61,061 nt of DNA from Chloroflexi bacterium RBG_13_51_36. GTDB lineage: Bacteria > Chloroflexota > Dehalococcoidia > GIF9 > AB-539-J10. The notes under the pieces were generated by a model. It saw nothing but the letters and a program-made list of their open reading frames with translations, ran no database searches and had not been told where the DNA came from. Positions 11,829 through 21,519 of this stretch are shown here, in pieces. The stretch covers positions 1 to 61,061 of the forward strand of contig MGMS01000005.1 of NCBI GenBank assembly GCA_001796515.1. The letters are read 5' to 3'. The position numbers and the translations under genes were made by a program. Within the stretch, counting starts at the first letter, position 1. Each line of letters opens with the position of its first letter.

Positions 11829-13187
11829 CTATCTACCTCCTACCACGCAATGGCGAATCCTGATGTGCGGGCTCCCATCAGAAACGGGTAACGGATATTG
11901 TCCCCCTTTGCCGCAGCCGCCGCCCTGATTCATATCCAAATCATCGCCTATGGCGTCTATATTGTGTAGAGTATTGAAGACATTACCGGTCAGCACCACA
12001 GGGCGCAATAGCTCGGCCAATTTGCCGCGACGAATCATGTAAGCTTCCCCGGCAGAGAAGGTAAACATCTCCAGGCTGGTCGTCCCGCCGTACCAATCCT
12101 TCACATAGACGCCTTCCTCAATGTCACCAATCATGTCTTCAAACGAAACCGCGCCTGCCTCAATCCATGTATTGCTCATCCGCACAATAGGGGGAAATAG
12201 GTAATTAATGGCTCGAGCATTTCCCGTCGCTCTCTCTCCCATCTTGGCCGCCGTTTCTCGGGAATGCAGCCTTCCCTCCAGAATGCCCTCCCGGACAAGA
12301 TATGTTTTATTCGTTGGCGTCCCCTCATCATCGTATGCATAACTTCCCCGCAGGTCAACCATCGTCGGGTCATCAATGATATTGAGATGCTTCCCGCCAA
12401 ATCTCTTTCCCAGCACCATAATTTGTCGCAGATTCTCATTTTGATATACGTGGTCGGACTCCGATAAATGTCCGAACGCTTCATGAGCAAACACCCCCGC
12501 CAGAATAGGGTCCAGAATCACGGTATACTCTCGGCCCTTCACCTGAGGCGCAGAAAGAAGGGCCGCGGCACGCCTTGCTACCTCCCCGGCTTTCTCATGT
12601 AGTCCTTCCACAGCGGAGAACTCGCCATTGCTGCCCAGGCTTATTCCGGCTTGTTGAACCTCGTTATCCTCGCGAGCTATGGCCGTCAATCGTCCAGCAA
12701 GGTCAGTTTTATGTTGTTCTATGTAACTGCCTTCCGAATTAGCGAATGTGATTCTTCGCTTCACGTCACGATAGTTAATTCTTGTGCTTTGAATCTTAGG
12801 GCTACTTAACATAATATCATTGTAGCCCTCCAGAAGCTCCTTCTTGGTTGCCAATGGTACGGCCGTGGCATCCCGCTTCAACTGCGGCGTCACCGTATCC
12901 ACTACAGGCTTTGTGGGGAAAAGCACAAACGGTTCCCTGCTGGCTAACTTTGCTTCCTCCACAGCCAGAGCCACTTTCTCCCTCAACCCATCCAGACGAT
13001 TGAAGCTGACGAATCCCCAGCTACCTTGGACCAAAGCGCGGACATTACCACCGGAATTGAGAGCCCTGCTTATCTCCTCCAACCTCTCCCCTCTGTACAC
13101 AATGCTGGTAGCCTGGCTCTCCTCACAGCGGATTTCAATATAATCGGCTCTCTGGCCCTTCAAGACGTCAGTAATCAAGTCACGCAC
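11829..13187 (-). CDS. tldD: TldD metalloprotease, catalytic subunit
   Basis: Zinc protease subunit pairing with TldE. The HExxxH motif is HEAFGH (His235, Glu236, His240 in the trimmed protein), followed downstream by DDEGTPTNKTYLVREG and the glycine/cysteine-rich end GGGCGKGGQYPLPVSDGSPHIRI. An open frame reaches 13277, but its first 30 residues are encoded by a dispersed GTCATTGCGAGCGAAGC repeat and are not homologous. The likely start is GTG at 13187 or TTG at 13178, just behind AGAGG. First gene of the minus-strand block that runs to ftsK. Confidence 0.93.
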   Translation of the reverse strand: MRDLITDVLKGQRADYIEIRCEESQATSIVYRGERLEEISRALNSGGNVRALVQGSWGFVSFNRLDGLREKVALAVEEAKLASREPFVLFPTKPVVDTVTPQLKRDATAVPLATKKELLEGYNDIMLSSPKIQSTRINYRDVKRRITFANSEGSYIEQHKTDLAGRLTAIAREDNEVQQAGISLGSNGEFSAVEGLHEKAGEVARRAAALLSAPQVKGREYTVILDPILAGVFAHEAFGHLSESDHVYQNENLRQIMVLGKRFGGKHLNIIDDPTMVDLRGSYAYDDEGTPTNKTYLVREGILEGRLHSRETAAKMGERATGNARAINYLFPPIVRMSNTWIEAGAVSFEDMIGDIEEGVYVKDWYGGTTSLEMFTFSAGEAYMIRRGKLAELLRPVVLTGNVFNTLHNIDAIGDDLDMNQGGGCGKGGQYPLPVSDGSPHIRIRHCVVGGR

Positions 13188-13252
13188 GCCTCTATTGTAG
13201 CCTTTGATACGAATAAAGAAAAGGGCGCTGTGATTCTGAGCCCTCTCTCTTT

Positions 13253-13280
13253 TGTCATTGCGAGCGAAGCGTGGCAATCG
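13253..13280 (+). repeat. Dispersed GTCATTGCGAGCGAAGC repeat
   Basis: TTGTCATTGCGAGCGAAGC followed by GTGGCAATCGAG is a member of a short intergenic repeat family. Related copies are at 39239-39264 (minus, GTCATTGTGAGTAGCGAG) and 46045-46129. Translated in reverse it gives the recurrent peptide RFARND, which falsely extends tldD and rel. Confidence 0.6.
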
Positions 13281-13368
13281 AGTGAGGTATTACCAGCGCC
13301 AAGCTGCACAACGACCTCCCATTGTAGTAGAATGTTCCAGATCACGTGACATTATCTGGGGTACGGTA

Positions 13369-13506
13369 ATGAAATTCACCGATAGACTGCTTGGCGCCAG
13401 CCGAAAGAACAAGAGCCGGCTTTGCATCGGGCTTGACCCGGACCCCGAGCTTATGTCCGGGGTAGACGTCCTGCAATTCAACGGAACCATCATCGAGGTC
13501 ACCTAA
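13369..13506 (+). pseudogene. 5' remnant of a resident pyrF (OMP decarboxylase)
   Basis: ATG at 13369 begins a frame reading MKFTDRLLGASRKNKS and then LCIGLDPDPEL, the start of a type-2 orotidine 5'-phosphate decarboxylase, and stops after 45 codons at IIEVT. In an intact enzyme this position is directly followed by the DLxCAYKPN strand. It aligns with residues 1-47 of the complete pyrF that begins 89 bases later, but clearly differs from it. The matching 3' remnant is at 16740-16826, so the resident gene was split and lost its centre. Confidence 0.8.
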
Positions 13507-13523
13507 AGGTAAAACGGCGAAGG

Positions 13524-13553
13524 TTGACAATACGACGTGTGTACTTGTATTAT
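13524..13553 (+). promoter_or_regulatory. Strong sigma-70-type promoter for pyrF
   Basis: TTGACA at 13524-13529 (perfect -35) and TATTAT at 13548-13553 (-10) are separated by 18 bases. Transcription would start near 13560, about 35 bases before the GTG start of the complete pyrF. It lies just inside the left border of the inserted segment, so the incoming gene brings its own promoter. Confidence 0.7.
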
Positions 13554-13594
13554 TAGTTTATAAGTAACCGGTGCCCACCCCATGGAGAAGTAAA

Positions 13595-14548
13595 GTGAGT
13601 TTTTTCGAAAAGCTGGCCATTGCTTCGCGAAAGAATAGCAGTCTGCTCTGCGTCGGGTTAGACCCAGACCCACAAATGAAGCTATCAAACGCTGATAACG
13701 TGGTTGCGTTTAACAGTCTCATCATCAAGGCAACAGTCGATCTAGCATGTGCTTACAAACCTAATCTGGCAATTTACGAGTCCATGGGAATAGAGGGACT
13801 GTCAGCGCTACAAGAGACGCTGAACCTCATACGTCAAGCTGACCCCTGCATCCCTATCATAGGAGACGGAAAGAGAGGCGATATCGGAACCTGTTCCACG
13901 GCATATGCAAAGACACTACTCGAAGACTATGACTTTGATGCCGTCACGGTCAACCCGTACATGGGGTCGGATGCGCTTAAACCATTCTTAGAGCACAAGG
14001 AAAAGGGGGTATTTGTGCTGTGTCGAACCTCAAATCCAAGTGGCATGCAAATCCAAGAGTTAATGGTAGTACGGGGTGGAGTTCGTCGCCCACTTTACCA
14101 AATTGTGGCTGAACTGGCACTAAGCTGGAACTGGAATAGGAATGTTGGGTTAGTGGTCGGCGCCACGTATCCCGAACAGATTTCGCGCGTAAGAGAGATT
14201 TGCCCGGATATGCTCTTTCTAATCCCTGGTGTTGGCGTTCAGGGTGGTTCAATAGAAAAGACAGTGCGGAGCGCGGCTGACACCCAAGGTGAGGGGTTCA
14301 TAATCAACGTTTCTCGTCAAATTATGTATGCCGCCAAGACACCTATAGGTACACGAAGCAAAGATAGCGAAGCTATGAGGAAAATGAGGCATGTCGCCCG
14401 ACAGCTTAGGGACGAGATCAATAGCTATTTACCAAGCTCCTTGAAGAAAAACCTAAAGCAAATATGTCAAAGCCACGAAGATCAGGCCAACCGAGGGGAG
14501 TCATATCGGCAGACAGAATCGTCGGTGATGGCCACTAGCGGCAGGTAG
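13595..14548 (+). CDS. pyrF: Orotidine 5'-phosphate decarboxylase, type 2 (incoming copy)
   Basis: Converts OMP to UMP, the last step of pyrimidine synthesis. The start VSFFEKLAIASRKNSS with LCVGLDPDPQ, the catalytic D-K-x-x-D region GDGKRGDIG (Lys93, Asp96) and the phosphate-binding end FLIPGVGVQGG are all present. GTG start at 13595 behind GGAGAAG. 317 residues, longer than usual because of a roughly 30-residue polar tail after the last helix (LKKNLKQICQSHEDQANRG). The only complete pyrF in the window, it lies inside the broken resident pyrF and points at the PRTase-DAC fusion. It probably supplies the OMP decarboxylase lost when the resident gene was broken. Confidence 0.92.
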   Translation: MSFFEKLAIASRKNSSLLCVGLDPDPQMKLSNADNVVAFNSLIIKATVDLACAYKPNLAIYESMGIEGLSALQETLNLIRQADPCIPIIGDGKRGDIGTCSTAYAKTLLEDYDFDAVTVNPYMGSDALKPFLEHKEKGVFVLCRTSNPSGMQIQELMVVRGGVRRPLYQIVAELALSWNWNRNVGLVVGATYPEQISRVREICPDMLFLIPGVGVQGGSIEKTVRSAADTQGEGFIINVSRQIMYAAKTPIGTRSKDSEAMRKMRHVARQLRDEINSYLPSSLKKNLKQICQSHEDQANRGESYRQTESSVMATSGR

Positions 14549-14632
14549 TCCGGCTCGGCGTCGACATTCACATCAAATGCCTCAGATGCCAACCATGGGC
14601 TCTTCTTCAATCCAGGTAAGCACGAAACTCTA

Positions 14633-16396
14633 CTATCCAGACAACCCTGCTATTGGCTCGAACACTGGCCATGTTTTGCCCCTCACAAATATCTCTACAG
14701 TACCGTTTTGAGAAATGCACACTACTGCCACATTACGACACTCTTTGCTTGTTCGATATGCAGTTTCTTTTCTGCTCCCTCCAGCACTGGAATAGTAGGC
14801 AGTACCCAACATGTCCGATGTTGCCTCCCCTTTGACAGTGTTTCTAATGATAACAGAAGCGTCCTGGACTTCCCCGTCTCCAGAGATGAATACAGCCCCG
14901 TCTAACTTTGCTATCTCCGCAGCCATCCTTGTGCCCAGGAGCACTAATGGTTGCTCAATGACTTTAATCTTCGGTGGCTTCCGTTGCAGACTCGAGGGAA
15001 TATCACCAACCACGAAGAGACCCCCGTAACCACGGGTAACCATTTCCTGAGCTATTTCAAGCACCGTTTCAAGAGTCTGACCAATGCCGCTAATCATGCC
15101 CTCAATCTCCCCTACAATTGGCTTGGGTGTTGTAAACTCCCAAGCACCCGTTCTTTGTGACAGTTCCGCAATTGCTTCTAACCTTCCCTCTCGATACACA
15201 CTTAGTGCCTTACGGTTGCGGCGAAGAACCAAACCAATCGCATCGAATTGACCAGTTATCTGTCTGAGCACCTCTATGCCACGCACTTCGCCCGAGTCCA
15301 TTGAACGTACTAGACGCCTGATTCCAATGAGTTCGCCATCTTTATCAAAGAGGAAAGCTGCTTCCGTTTCTGGGAGAGCGTCATAGTAGGGGACTAAATC
15401 CCCCAGGTTGCTGGCTCCAATGCGAGACTGAGTCCTAACAGGAGCATCCAGAGGAAGAACAGTGGATACTGTCTTTCTGTCACTAATTAAAACAGAACAC
15501 CCCACAGATCGCCTTTCCACTCTAATGTGGGTGGTTGCTAGTAGATGTCCCACAAGTTCTGTCAGTACCCTTCTTTTCCTAGGGTCTGCTTCTCCACGAT
15601 GCACAAAACGGCGAATGAACTGTGTCAGCGCACTATCCTGCGCAACCGTTGTGACCGGTAAACCTTCCAGCAGCACTGGCAGCCAAGGTCTCCACTGATC
15701 AATCAATTCCACCTGCTCGTGGTCACGCTGCAACCCATAGACTTCTCGATACTGAGCGATGATTGTATCGGTCATGCCCGGTGGCATAGATAGTACTACT
15801 GAGAGGAAGTCCTCCTCAGGGTTATAGAGGTCAACGCACGATTTGGGACAGAGTGGGCAGTCACTTGGATCCCACTTGTTTAAAGCTAGCTGAACTAACG
15901 AACTGACCTCATATCTGACTCCTTCTAGGAGAATCTCCCCCTCGCCACCACTGCGGTCAACAGCAACACCGACCCCAGCTACAACTGCCCCAATTGCCCT
16001 GAGAGACTGCAATGCAGACGCGAGAGTTCCCCCCGTTGTCAGTATGTCATCAATCAAAACGATCCTGTCCGTCACTCCTTGGCCCACCTCGCCTGGGTTG
16101 ACCCAGTCAATAGTTTTGCCAGACTGACGGCCTATCAGTAAAGGTATCCCCAATCTATTAGAGGCTTCCCTGGCCAGGAGGATCCCCCCAACGGTGTCTG
16201 CCGCAAGGGCTAAGGGCTTCCAGTCGGCCACCTTGCGAGCCATTCTCGTTCCAAATACCTGGCTTATCTCCGGATACATCATGGCAATACGGACTTGGAT
16301 ATAACCGTCCGAATGTTTTCCACTTACCAGCCGAAAGTGACCCTCCAGATAGCAGCCGGCCTTCCTCAGAAGGTTTAAAAGAACTTGCGAATCCAC
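14633..16396 (-). CDS. PyrE-like phosphoribosyltransferase fused to a DisA_N/DAC-like domain
   Basis: 587 residues; ordinary PyrE is near 200. Residues 1-185 are a type I PRTase of the orotate family, with SGKHSDGYIQ near 25, PRPP loop VLIDDILTTGGT at 113-124 and the PyrE-type end WDPSDCPLC at 175-183. The mobile catalytic loop, usually RKExKxHG, reads GRQSGKTID at 89-97, so orotate activity is uncertain. Residues 440-575 follow the diadenylate cyclase layout: GGLFVVGD (458-465), LDGAVFISGDGEV with the DGA motif (499-501), and GGSRKETA (539-546) where cyclases have GTRHRAA, then VAVVCISQNGTVEIF. RHR has become RKE, suggesting a nucleotide-binding sensor rather than a cyclase. Residues 345-405 resemble a second, weaker half-copy. 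GTG start at 16396 with GAGG. It faces pyrF tail to tail. Confidence 0.8.
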   Translation of the reverse strand: MDSQVLLNLLRKAGCYLEGHFRLVSGKHSDGYIQVRIAMMYPEISQVFGTRMARKVADWKPLALAADTVGGILLAREASNRLGIPLLIGRQSGKTIDWVNPGEVGQGVTDRIVLIDDILTTGGTLASALQSLRAIGAVVAGVGVAVDRSGGEGEILLEGVRYEVSSLVQLALNKWDPSDCPLCPKSCVDLYNPEEDFLSVVLSMPPGMTDTIIAQYREVYGLQRDHEQVELIDQWRPWLPVLLEGLPVTTVAQDSALTQFIRRFVHRGEADPRKRRVLTELVGHLLATTHIRVERRSVGCSVLISDRKTVSTVLPLDAPVRTQSRIGASNLGDLVPYYDALPETEAAFLFDKDGELIGIRRLVRSMDSGEVRGIEVLRQITGQFDAIGLVLRRNRKALSVYREGRLEAIAELSQRTGAWEFTTPKPIVGEIEGMISGIGQTLETVLEIAQEMVTRGYGGLFVVGDIPSSLQRKPPKIKVIEQPLVLLGTRMAAEIAKLDGAVFISGDGEVQDASVIIRNTVKGEATSDMLGTAYYSSAGGSRKETAYRTSKECRNVAVVCISQNGTVEIFVRGKTWPVFEPIAGLSG

Positions 16397-16420
16397 CGCG
16401 TTTCTACCTCAGTTCATCGC

Positions 16421-16426
16421 ATTATA
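16421..16426 (-). promoter_or_regulatory. Probable -10 box for the PRTase-DAC gene
   Basis: The minus strand carries TATAAT 24 bases upstream of the GTG start. No clear -35 hexamer is found at 16-18 bases, so the element would be weak or activator-dependent, if it is a promoter. Confidence 0.4.
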
Positions 16427-16521
16427 TAGGAGTGTTTTGACCCCATTTATCCGATGTCGTCCCCACAACCATTCTAAATCCTGTGCTGGCCTCCGTCAAT
16501 ACGGGCGCGGGCAGTACGGAA

Positions 16522-16740
16522 CTATCCTTTTGCGATTACGCAATGCGCCAAAAAGTCGGCTTTATCGACTCCGTGCGCTGCTTCGTACTGCTGCATGGCT
16601 AGCTTTATCCTACATATTAATTTGGGTGCCTCCCTCGTTTCTGTGAGCAGGCATTCAACCGAGAGCGAAAGCAAAGACCCGTGACCGTCAGGGGAGATCC
16701 TAAGTCCCACGGTTTTGCATCGGCTTCTTAGTGTTCTCAA
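16522..16740 (-). CDS. Small hypothetical protein upstream of the PRTase-DAC gene
   Basis: A 72-residue frame from a TTG at 16740, lying within the inserted segment and in the same direction as the fusion gene, 125 bases ahead of it. It is not recognised. A C-terminal helix-like stretch (RIKLAMQQYEAAHGVDKADF) looks protein-like, but no strong ribosome site precedes it and its first bases touch the resident pyrF remnant. It may be a small partner of the fusion, a relic, or chance. Confidence 0.25.
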   Translation of the reverse strand: MRTLRSRCKTVGLRISPDGHGSLLSLSVECLLTETREAPKLICRIKLAMQQYEAAHGVDKADFLAHCVIAKG

Positions 16741-16826
16741 AGAAAAAGGATTTTGCCCGGGCAGCTAGAACCGTGGCCGAAAAAATCCGCAACCAGATCA
16801 ACGAATATACACACAAGACTCGGTGA
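16740..16826 (+). pseudogene. 3' remnant of the resident pyrF
   Basis: The frame from about 16740 to the TGA at 16824-16826 reads KDFARAARTVAEKIRNQINE and then YTHKTR. This is the C-terminal helix of type-2 OMP decarboxylases (compare MRHVARQLRDEINSY in the complete copy). With the 5' remnant at 13369-13506 it brackets the 3.2-kb insertion. The central ~200 codons are missing. No clear target duplication is seen at the two edges. Confidence 0.75.
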
Positions 16827-16930
16827 TATAGTCCGGCTGCGCAAAGCGCACCCCGGCGGCAGCCATGGATGGGAAGCGCTGACGGTGGGTGACGGCCTCG
16901 GCCTCAAGTGCCACAGAAGTGCCCGAGAAA
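16813..16930 (+). pseudogene. DUF951-family relic overlapping the old pyrF end
   Basis: In the frame -1 to the pyrF remnant the sequence reads TRLGDIVRLRKAHPGGSHGW and then EALTVGDGLGLKC, the body of a DUF951 protein (family pattern LGDIVRLKKPHPCGSxxWxV...DIGLKC.xC). The usual HPCGS is HPGGS, the second CxxC half is lost by a shift after KC, and there is no proper start codon. The overlap implies that pyrF and this gene once formed an operon. Confidence 0.55.
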
Positions 16931-17015
16931 ACGGCAAGAGAATTCAATTGTCATTCGGCACGTTGCTTTGGCCGGTAGTATTCCCTCCAGGAACGTGGCT
17001 TTCTGCGAACTCATA

Positions 17016-17037
17016 TTGACTCATTATGTTGACTCAT
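17016..17037 (+). repeat. Tandem TTGACTCAT motif
   Basis: TTGACTCAT occurs at 17016-17024 and again at 17029-17037, a 13-base period, about 250 bases before the MarR gene. It could be an operator or a duplicated -35 region, but no properly spaced -10 box follows. Confidence 0.3.
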
Positions 17038-17207
17038 AGTAGTATATTTGTGGGAAGCTGACCAGTAGGGACAGACAGCACCGCTATTTAACACAATGCC
17101 CACTATTGTTGGGCGTCTTACGACGGCCTGTGCGGCAGGGTCGTACAACAGACTTGTGTTGCCTGAATTGAACGATGTGGAAGAAGTTGTTATGGAGATA
17201 TCTTGAT

Positions 17208-17236
17208 TTGCCGCGAATAGTGAAGCTTGCTATAAT
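17208..17236 (+). promoter_or_regulatory. Probable promoter of the marR-family gene
   Basis: TTGCCG at 17208-17213 and TATAAT at 17231-17236 are 17 bases apart, 54 bases before the ATG. MarR repressors commonly bind their own promoter, but no perfect palindrome is seen here. Confidence 0.55.
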
Positions 17237-17289
17237 AACGAATTTCCCAGGCGAGTAAAGAACTAATGAAATAACAGGAGGAGATAAGT

Positions 17290-17880
17290 ATGCCAATAAA
17301 GTTTAAATTCCAAAACATGGATAAGGGTGCATGGGTCCTGCTGCGCCAGGTCTATAACCTGGTTTTGAAGTGTGAGGACCAGGTATTTAGTGAACACAAG
17401 CTCACTACGGAGCAACACACTCTTCTTATGGCTGTGAAGAACATCAGTGGGCCGGTACGAATAACCGACATAGCCCAGTGGTTAGACCGTACGCCAAATA
17501 GCGTCAGTATGCTGGTCGACCGCATGGTCAAAGCTGGTCTGGTCAAAAGAGTAAGAGACAGGAAGGACCGCAGGACCGTGTTTGTGAGTATGACCGCTAA
17601 GGCGGAGAAAGCCTATGCACCGGCAACTGCAGCGGGCTGGGCACTCATCCAGGAAATCCTGTCACCACTATCTAATGAGGACAAGCGTGCCTTGATCAGT
17701 CTGCTCGAGACGCTCAGAGACAAGACATACGATTATCTCGGGTCCGGAGAGGTTACAGAGGAAGTGAGGAGAAATGAGACCCAGGTTGTCCAGCTTACAA
17801 AACGGGCAGCCAAGTCCAAGCAACGGCCCGGTCTTAAAACCAAAGGCCAGGGTGGTAGGAAGAAGCGGGCTGTACGATAA
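17290..17880 (+). CDS. MarR-family transcriptional regulator
   Basis: 196 residues with a strong AGGAGG seven bases before the ATG. The winged helix-turn-helix is visible as RITDIAQWLDRTPNSVSMLV followed by DRMVKAGLVKR and the wing RVRDRKDRRTVFVSMTAKAE, the classic MarR DxRxxR pattern. The protein is about 50 residues longer than usual, ending in a lysine/arginine-rich tail (KSKQRPGLKTKGQGGRKKRA) that may add non-specific DNA contact. There is no adjacent co-directional effector gene, so its regulon is unknown. The ligand is not inferable. Confidence 0.88.
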   Translation: MPIKFKFQNMDKGAWVLLRQVYNLVLKCEDQVFSEHKLTTEQHTLLMAVKNISGPVRITDIAQWLDRTPNSVSMLVDRMVKAGLVKRVRDRKDRRTVFVSMTAKAEKAYAPATAAGWALIQEILSPLSNEDKRALISLLETLRDKTYDYLGSGEVTEEVRRNETQVVQLTKRAAKSKQRPGLKTKGQGGRKKRAVR

Positions 17881-18145
17881 GAGCAACTGGCTTTAGTCAA
17901 TGCCAGGTGGCATAGAGCAGTTGTTACGTCTCCGCTAATCGCACCCGAACGAGACATAGTCCCCGTTTCAACTCACTGGTAAAACAGCTTAGCCAGCGCG
18001 GAACAACGACGACATTTTGATTAGTACGCAAATGCCAGAACTGTTGGGTAACAGCACAGACCAATTTTCCCCAATCACGAGACCATAAGCCCCAATTATG
18101 GTACTCTGTCTCCTTAATGTCTTCAAGTTTTGAAACACTCTTTTC

Positions 18146-18658
18146 ATGAATATGAAAATACTCGTTTTCTTACACGGAACAACTATAATGCACGAGAATG
18201 CCAAAGGGCTTGCTCGAGAAGAGGTAGTCAGGCAAGTCATGGAGGGTGCGCAATCTGTCCATGATTTCGCATCATACGTCCCTGTCGGCAGTGCTGCTAA
18301 GAAATTACGGCAATGGAAGGGACAAGGAGCAAAAATATGTTATTTGAGCTCCCACAAAGATGCTGAAGATGTTGCAGAGGACAAGTTTGTTCTGAAGAAA
18401 TATGCTTTCCCCGATGGTCAAATCTTCTATCGCCGAAATAGAGAGGCATACAAGGATGTTGTTGAAAAAATTCGGCCTCTTCCAGATGTGATTGTTGAAG
18501 ACGATTGTGAATCAATAGGCGGAGAAGCTGAAATGGTCTATCCTAATCTCAAGCCAGAATTGAAAAGCAAAATCAAATCAATTGTTATCAAAGAGTTCGG
18601 CGGCATAGATTATCTTCCTGATAGGATTTCCGAGTTGATGAAGTGGAATTGGAAATAG
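18146..18658 (+). CDS. HAD-like hypothetical protein
   Basis: 170 residues. The order of elements fits a HAD-type Rossmann fold: MKILVFLHGTTIM as strand 1, AKICYLSSHK as motif II (serine after a strand) and PDVIVEDDCESIGG as the acidic motif IV. The first aspartate that HAD phosphatases need is replaced in FLHGTT, so catalysis is doubtful. The family is unnamed as far as can be told by eye. Start is at 18146, with a second ATG two codons on. It stands alone between marR and the protease. Confidence 0.5.
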   Translation: MNMKILVFLHGTTIMHENAKGLAREEVVRQVMEGAQSVHDFASYVPVGSAAKKLRQWKGQGAKICYLSSHKDAEDVAEDKFVLKKYAFPDGQIFYRRNREAYKDVVEKIRPLPDVIVEDDCESIGGEAEMVYPNLKPELKSKIKSIVIKEFGGIDYLPDRISELMKWNWK

Positions 18659-21290: not shown

Positions 21291-21410
21291 AATAATCCCC
21301 GCGGTAGCTATGAGTGGAAGGTAGAGAGTGTGAGCCTCGATATCGGCCTCAGATGCCTCAAATGCCAGCGAAGAGTTTTATGGCCAGACATGCGTTCGGG
21401 ACAAGGGCGA
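21291..21410 (+). pseudogene. Second DUF951-family relic (C-terminal half)
   Basis: The frame reads RGSYEWKVESVSLDIGLRCL and then KCQRRVLWPD, the C-terminal two thirds of a DUF951 protein including its CxxC, with C-to-R at the usual HPCGS. The N-terminal LGDIVRL segment is absent and no start or ribosome site is present. It is not the missing half of the relic near 16.8 kb, because the two overlap in the GS-x-x-W segment. Confidence 0.55.
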
Positions 21411-21519
21411 AGTAATTTGTCTCCAAAAGTGACTAACTACCCAGCCTCGCGACAATAGAAAAGCCCCGCGATGGTTTGTGTAGTGAACTAACAAAACAAG
21501 TCAATCTGTGGTCTGAGCC

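Follow-up and report, generated by a model that had tools for sequence, protein, structure and literature searches.

DAC domains are known for synthesising c-di-AMP, and the presence of one behind a phosphoribosyltransferase of the PyrE type raises the question of what a signal-producing fold might do on an enzyme of pyrimidine synthesis. Such a fusion was proposed in an earlier note on the window (the whole 61,061-nt stretch of Chloroflexota DNA analysed here), and Pfam recognises both of its halves above the gathering score: Pribosyltran (PF00156, 1.1e-8) at the N-terminus and DAC (PF02457, 30.1 bits against a cut-off of 27, 3.8e-7) at the C-terminus. The note knew of no described PyrE-DAC fusion, and literature searches, largely among papers open without subscription, likewise yielded no description of one. 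The component domains are known, while the tandem DAC and its fusion to PyrE represent a new arrangement.

A single frame in place of the native pyrF

The fusion is encoded by a single 587-codon frame with a GTG start, which runs from 16396 to 14633 on the minus strand (Table 1). The coordinates and residue numbers given earlier hold for this strand; a plus-strand reading of 14633-16396 was rejected, as it is filled with stops throughout. All the motifs that had been pointed out are indeed found in this one frame, namely the PRPP motif (112-124), DPSDCPLC (176-183), GGLFVVGD (458-465), DGA (499-501) and GSRKETA (540-546), and with both halves above their Pfam gathering scores a chance resemblance is excluded. 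A search with Rfam over 12500-18200 gave zero matches.

Table 1. Coordinates of the fusion gene, its domains and motifs, and the surrounding replaced segment (window coordinates; residues of the fusion protein).
Feature	Coordinates	Strand	Basis or remark
PyrE-tandem DAC fusion gene	14633..16396	(-)	587 aa, GTG start
PyrE-type phosphoribosyltransferase domain, residues 1-190, CPLC tail	15827..16396	(-)	PF00156, TIGR01367, phmmer to OPRT structures
PRPP-binding motif RIVLIDDILTTGG, residues 112-124	16025..16063	(-)	translation; matches MtOPRT 120-128
Helical linker, residues 191-285	15542..15826	(-)	outside any Pfam match; modelled as helices at low confidence
Degenerate first DAC domain, residues 286-425 (about)	15122..15541	(-)	strand/helix order, profile match, alignment to relatives
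Second DAC domain, residues 437-579	14660..15088	(-)	Pfam DAC above cut-off; Foldseek to DisA/CdaA
DGA motif, residues 499-501, conserved	14894..14902	(-)	translation, alignment to relatives
GSRKETA, residues 540-546, replacing GTRHRAA	14759..14779	(-)	translation, alignment
Promoter-like site TTGACG-17-TAGAAT, 5' of fusion gene	16471..16499	(-)	consensus match only
Replaced segment, 3.2 kb for about 0.6 kb of native pyrF	13505..16736	.	comparison with G010, G012, G019
5' remnant of native pyrF, first 45 codons	13369..13504	(+)	comparison with congeners
3' remnant of native pyrF, last ~29 codons and stop	16737..16826	(+)	comparison with congeners
Xenologous pyrF (orotidine-5'-phosphate decarboxylase), convergent with fusion gene	13571..14548	(+)	TIGR02127, identity, tree
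Promoter-like site TTGACA-18-TATTAT, 5' of xenologous pyrF	13524..13553	(+)	consensus match only

Comparison with congeners revealed that homology ends near position 13504, where the native pyrF has reached codon 45, and returns from 16737 onwards, where about 29 codons of that gene are left ahead of its stop; in the congener G010, the HAD-M48-MFS flank is the same but the insert is absent. The pyrF within the segment scores 249.4 bits against TIGR02127 (cut-off 110.6) and shares 49-56% identity with its counterparts in the genus. A tree places it beyond the family and order, although its branch is long and its exact position therefore unsure. It is the sole PyrF found in the source genome, where no other intact pyrF was detected. 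Hence, the native pyrF has been replaced by a foreign two-gene cassette comprising a pyrF and the fusion gene.

The genes flanking the segment are native to the genus, with RNase J being up to 90% identical to its congeneric counterparts, and a contaminant contig was rejected on this ground. An assembly chimaera in this MAG, a possibility that the earlier note had itself raised, appears extremely improbable. The fusion comes from a single genome in many contigs and the native pyrF is interrupted at both ends of the segment, as a chimaera might produce; however, both flanks are in register with the congeners, and the 16397-16760 region upstream of the fusion gene is single-copy in the genome and partly resembles congener sequence, which argues against misassembly at a repeat. 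Further, the window contains zero Ns, and codon use is uniform along the frame and resembles that of the neighbouring genes; the PyrE and DAC halves share the same codon composition, making a chimaera of two genes unlikely. The fused module is also homologous across both of its DAC halves to a stand-alone protein from another genome (G500, see below). As a separate observation, the window regions 21297-21509 and 16736-16930 overlap in the part of the congeners' pyrF 3'-flank sequence that they share, such that this flank looks partly duplicated on either side of the MarR-HAD-M48-MFS genes.

The PyrE-type half

The best curated family for the N-terminal half is TIGR01367 (pyrE_Therm), at 93.1 bits against a cut-off of 150.25; TIGR00336 gives 59 bits against 106.8. 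As it stays below both cut-offs, PyrE-like is the right wording for this domain. In phmmer searches of the PDB, the first 200 residues match phosphoribosyltransferases only, with OPRTs at the top, the closest solved structures being a UMP synthase (3qw4, 8.8e-16) and the Mycobacterium tuberculosis OPRT (MtOPRT; 5hkf, 1.4e-13). The PRPP motif is intact, with the D-D-x-x-T-T-G signature formed by D116, D117, T120, T121 and G122. In MtOPRT, Arg38 and Arg94 bind PRPP, and Lys98 lies in the catalytic loop (PMC5430920). Alignment shows their equivalents to be retained in the fusion as R36, R90 and K94, while those of Lys95 and His100 are lost (Q91 and I96); of the four flexible-loop residues (R94/K95/K98/H100 in MtOPRT), two are therefore the same and two different. 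A second, separate PyrE is encoded on contig C17 of the source genome and passes the curated cut-off with 198 bits, so that it is not evident that the fused PyrE serves as the housekeeping copy. Together with the Q91/I96 changes and the sub-cut-off scores, this suggests that the OPRT activity of the fusion may be redundant or absent.

A tandem DAC module with an altered active site

The C-terminal part holds an additional DAC unit, at about 286-425, that the earlier note had missed. While it has no recognisable motifs, its strands and helices follow the same order as those of the second unit in an AlphaFold model, the two units match each other in a profile comparison (prob 81.5, E 1.1e-5), and it aligns to the first half of the tandem-DAC relatives described below. 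The matching order of elements and the profile match establish that the module is a tandem DAC. The model, of moderate confidence, covers residues 195-587 and was built with seven relatives; its pLDDT averages 62.7, the second DAC reaching ~80 and parts of the first ~70. It speaks to the module itself and not to its packing against PyrE. A full-length model, in which the PyrE half was below 50 pLDDT, was set aside. By sequence, the C-terminal part matches nothing in the PDB; with the 195-587 model, Foldseek recovered DisA (3c1y) first (E 3.2e-6, probability 1.00), followed by CdaA and CdaM, which bears out the DAC fold that had been predicted from the motifs.

The earlier reading of the active site, with DGA retained and GSRKETA in place of GTRHRAA, also stands. 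In the RHR motif of the second DAC, the first R is kept, with H replaced by K and the second R by E. In addition, A496, K497, the DGA triad, G540, R542, S550 and E552, which are invariant in the tandem-DAC relatives, are unchanged in the fusion, suggesting that this copy has not simply decayed. In M. tuberculosis DacA, changing RHR to AAA abolishes both ATP binding and c-di-AMP synthesis (PMC3328451). Given this loss and the change of RHR to RKE, cyclase activity of the fused module is unlikely to judge from its sequence. Nucleotide binding by the RKE variant is uncertain: as the DacA variant loses ATP binding, this site may bind nothing.

These changes bear on the main rival explanation, under which the tandem DAC would be a tail that is either a relic or has a structural role alone (oligomerisation), and the fused phosphoribosyltransferase a redundant xenolog that accompanied pyrF. 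The separate PyrE above the cut-off, the missing RHR site and the differing OPRT loop residues all fit such a history. However, the 587 codons remain open, the DAC core positions are retained, and the codon use resembles that of the neighbours; we consider this an unlikely, though serious, alternative.

Relatives of the module and of the fusion

Searches for the tandem module covered 400 genomes from the phylum and 393 from the class, and a profile of it was run on 331 genomes from the phylum (the sets overlap); among these, only two further genomes were found to possess it. In G500, a groundwater Chloroflexi MAG, it is a stand-alone protein of 326 aa (34% identity over 298 residues, E 4.1e-37) with the motifs DGA and GRGRHATA; in a second MAG (G070), it is likewise stand-alone. 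A scan of genome contigs uncovered seven more loci with the module in Anaerolineae/Chloroflexi: six of these (L104, L106-L110) encode proteins of ~870-980 aa with an acyl-CoA ligase (AMP-binding) domain followed by a C-terminal tandem DAC with GARHSSAA, while the seventh (L105) has a broken frame. In some of these fusions (L104, L107), the ligase domain has an ATP-binding P-loop motif that looks degraded.

A second PyrE-DAC fusion was not found in the same genome sets or in the genome-contig scan, confining it to one genome. Peptide-pattern scans of genome and viral contigs and tblastn searches of phages and plasmids recovered only ordinary PyrE as relatives of the fusion, and no tandem-DAC relatives were found in the viral contigs, phages or plasmids. 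The tandem DAC is thus a rare, mobile or transferable module of Chloroflexota enzymes; its occurrence both as a stand-alone protein and on a second metabolic enzyme, the acyl-CoA ligase, is as expected of a transferable module.

It is also conceivable that the module is still a cyclase, possibly with an altered product, to which PyrE was fused as a metabolic sensor for signal synthesis. The retained DGA and the combination of DGA with R-H in the relatives favour this proposal, but the replacement of H and the second R by K and E, and the abolished activity of the DacA variant (PMC3328451), make it very unlikely.

Genomic context and conflict systems

A comparison of the pyrF 3' flank across loci of the genus (L051, L052, L136, L140) revealed different cargo in different congeners: G012 carries an Avs4 gene (1988 bits) next to one that is caspase-like, G005 a HATPase paired with a phosphoesterase, G001 glycine-cleavage genes and G010 MarC. 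This flank is therefore a variable cargo site and not specifically a defence island; the latter reading holds only partly, since the cargo of other congeners is metabolic or membrane-related.

The earlier note had also drawn a parallel with DACN-type domains of conflict systems. The parallel is indirect: the source genome does encode one DACNV-DAC protein, but this protein is distinct from the fusion, comes from another contig and has GTRHRAA intact. It is encoded on contig C14 (G000, L131:6305-9114) and has an intact DGA as well. About 30 bp 3' of it lies a gene for a 487-aa protein whose start reads like SEFIR/TIR, and the two form a candidate nucleotide-signalling conflict pair. Elsewhere, genes for patatin phospholipase-like, DACNV-DAC-like and CD-NTase-like proteins are found together at L102 (G093:C68, 680-3930), giving this locus a CBASS-like look.

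These contexts bring up the possibility of a conflict (anti-phage) cassette, in which a nucleotide signal on the tandem DAC would switch a PRPP- or pyrimidine-depleting activity. It is favoured by the variable cargo site with the Avs4 and caspase-like genes of G012, and by the SEFIR/TIR-looking neighbour of the genome's own DACNV-DAC. However, the cargo at the same site is glycine cleavage in G001 and MarC in G010, the partner gene encodes an ordinary PyrF above the cut-off, and PADLOC gives no strong match for the fusion, with only a weak one to ShosT (2e-4) over the PRPP loop. Hence, we regard an anti-phage role as clearly unlikely.

A proposed regulatory module on a metabolic enzyme

We tentatively favour, with somewhat less than even confidence, the explanation that the fusion, gained along with the foreign pyrF, joins an enzyme of the OPRT type to a degenerate, non-cyclising tandem-DAC module with a regulatory role. 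In c-di-AMP synthases such as DisA and CdaA, DAC domains form a face-to-face dimer; the two DAC halves of the fusion could pack in a like manner as an intramolecular pseudo-dimer. A nucleotide, either an adenine nucleotide or a cyclic dinucleotide, might then bind between them and thereby tune OMP synthesis and the use of PRPP up or down. The step from the fold to a regulatory role is one that we infer. The earlier note, which had suggested that a signal such as c-di-AMP may gate a PRPP- or pyrimidine-consuming activity, is supported in part: the fusion, the DAC fold and the loss of RHR are borne out, while c-di-AMP sensing and the gating of PRPP use would be hypothetical. This explanation gains support from the PRPP motif and the retained R36/R90/K94, the DAC fold, the recurrence of the module, its retained core, the uniform codon use, and the pyrF partner, which encodes the next pathway enzyme after PyrE in the same replaced segment. 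It is weakened by the loss of RHR, Q91/I96, the sub-cut-off PyrE score, the occurrence in one genome and the moderate-confidence model.

A broader proposal, possible but rather doubtful, is that the degenerate tandem DAC is a transferable nucleotide-receptor module placed on metabolic enzymes of Chloroflexota (PyrE here and acyl-CoA ligases in Anaerolineae), through which an adenine nucleotide, cyclic or linear, would exert direct control over pyrimidine synthesis and the use of PRPP. If so, DAC folds would act as receptors as well as synthases, and a DAC pair that lacks RHR but keeps its core on a metabolic enzyme would represent a signal synthase turned receptor, tying adenine-nucleotide signalling to pyrimidine synthesis within one polypeptide. 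As the module is common to the PyrE and acyl-CoA ligase fusions, it offers several proteins for testing, some of them with R-H as built-in controls.

Comparison with known systems

The fusion shares the PRPP motif, GHF.L.SG.HS, the CPLC tail and R36/R90/K94 with OPRT PyrE proteins (TIGR01367, TIGR00336, MtOPRT 5HKF), but differs from them in scoring below both curated cut-offs, in lacking the K95/H100 equivalents and in its C-terminal extension of ~390 residues. PyrF-PyrE fusions (PRK05500, UMP synthase) likewise pair these two functions; here, however, pyrF and the PyrE gene are separate and convergent, and PyrE is joined to DAC instead. With DisA, CdaA/DacA and CdaM (PF02457), it has in common the fold, the DGA motif and a Pfam DAC match above the cut-off, whereas it possesses two DAC units per chain (the first degenerate), RKE for RHR and an attached PyrE; no match to the other parts of DisA was seen. 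DACNV-DAC proteins (PF21751 and PF02457) resemble it in placing a DAC-like domain behind another N-terminal part, and one is found in the same genome; unlike the fusion, they have an intact GTRHRAA, a single DAC and no phosphoribosyltransferase. The tandem-DAC proteins of Chloroflexota (G500/L103, G070, L104, L106-L110) share the tandem order and the invariant positions, but retain the R-H (GARHSSAA, GRGRHATA) that is changed in the fusion and in no case have PyrE attached.
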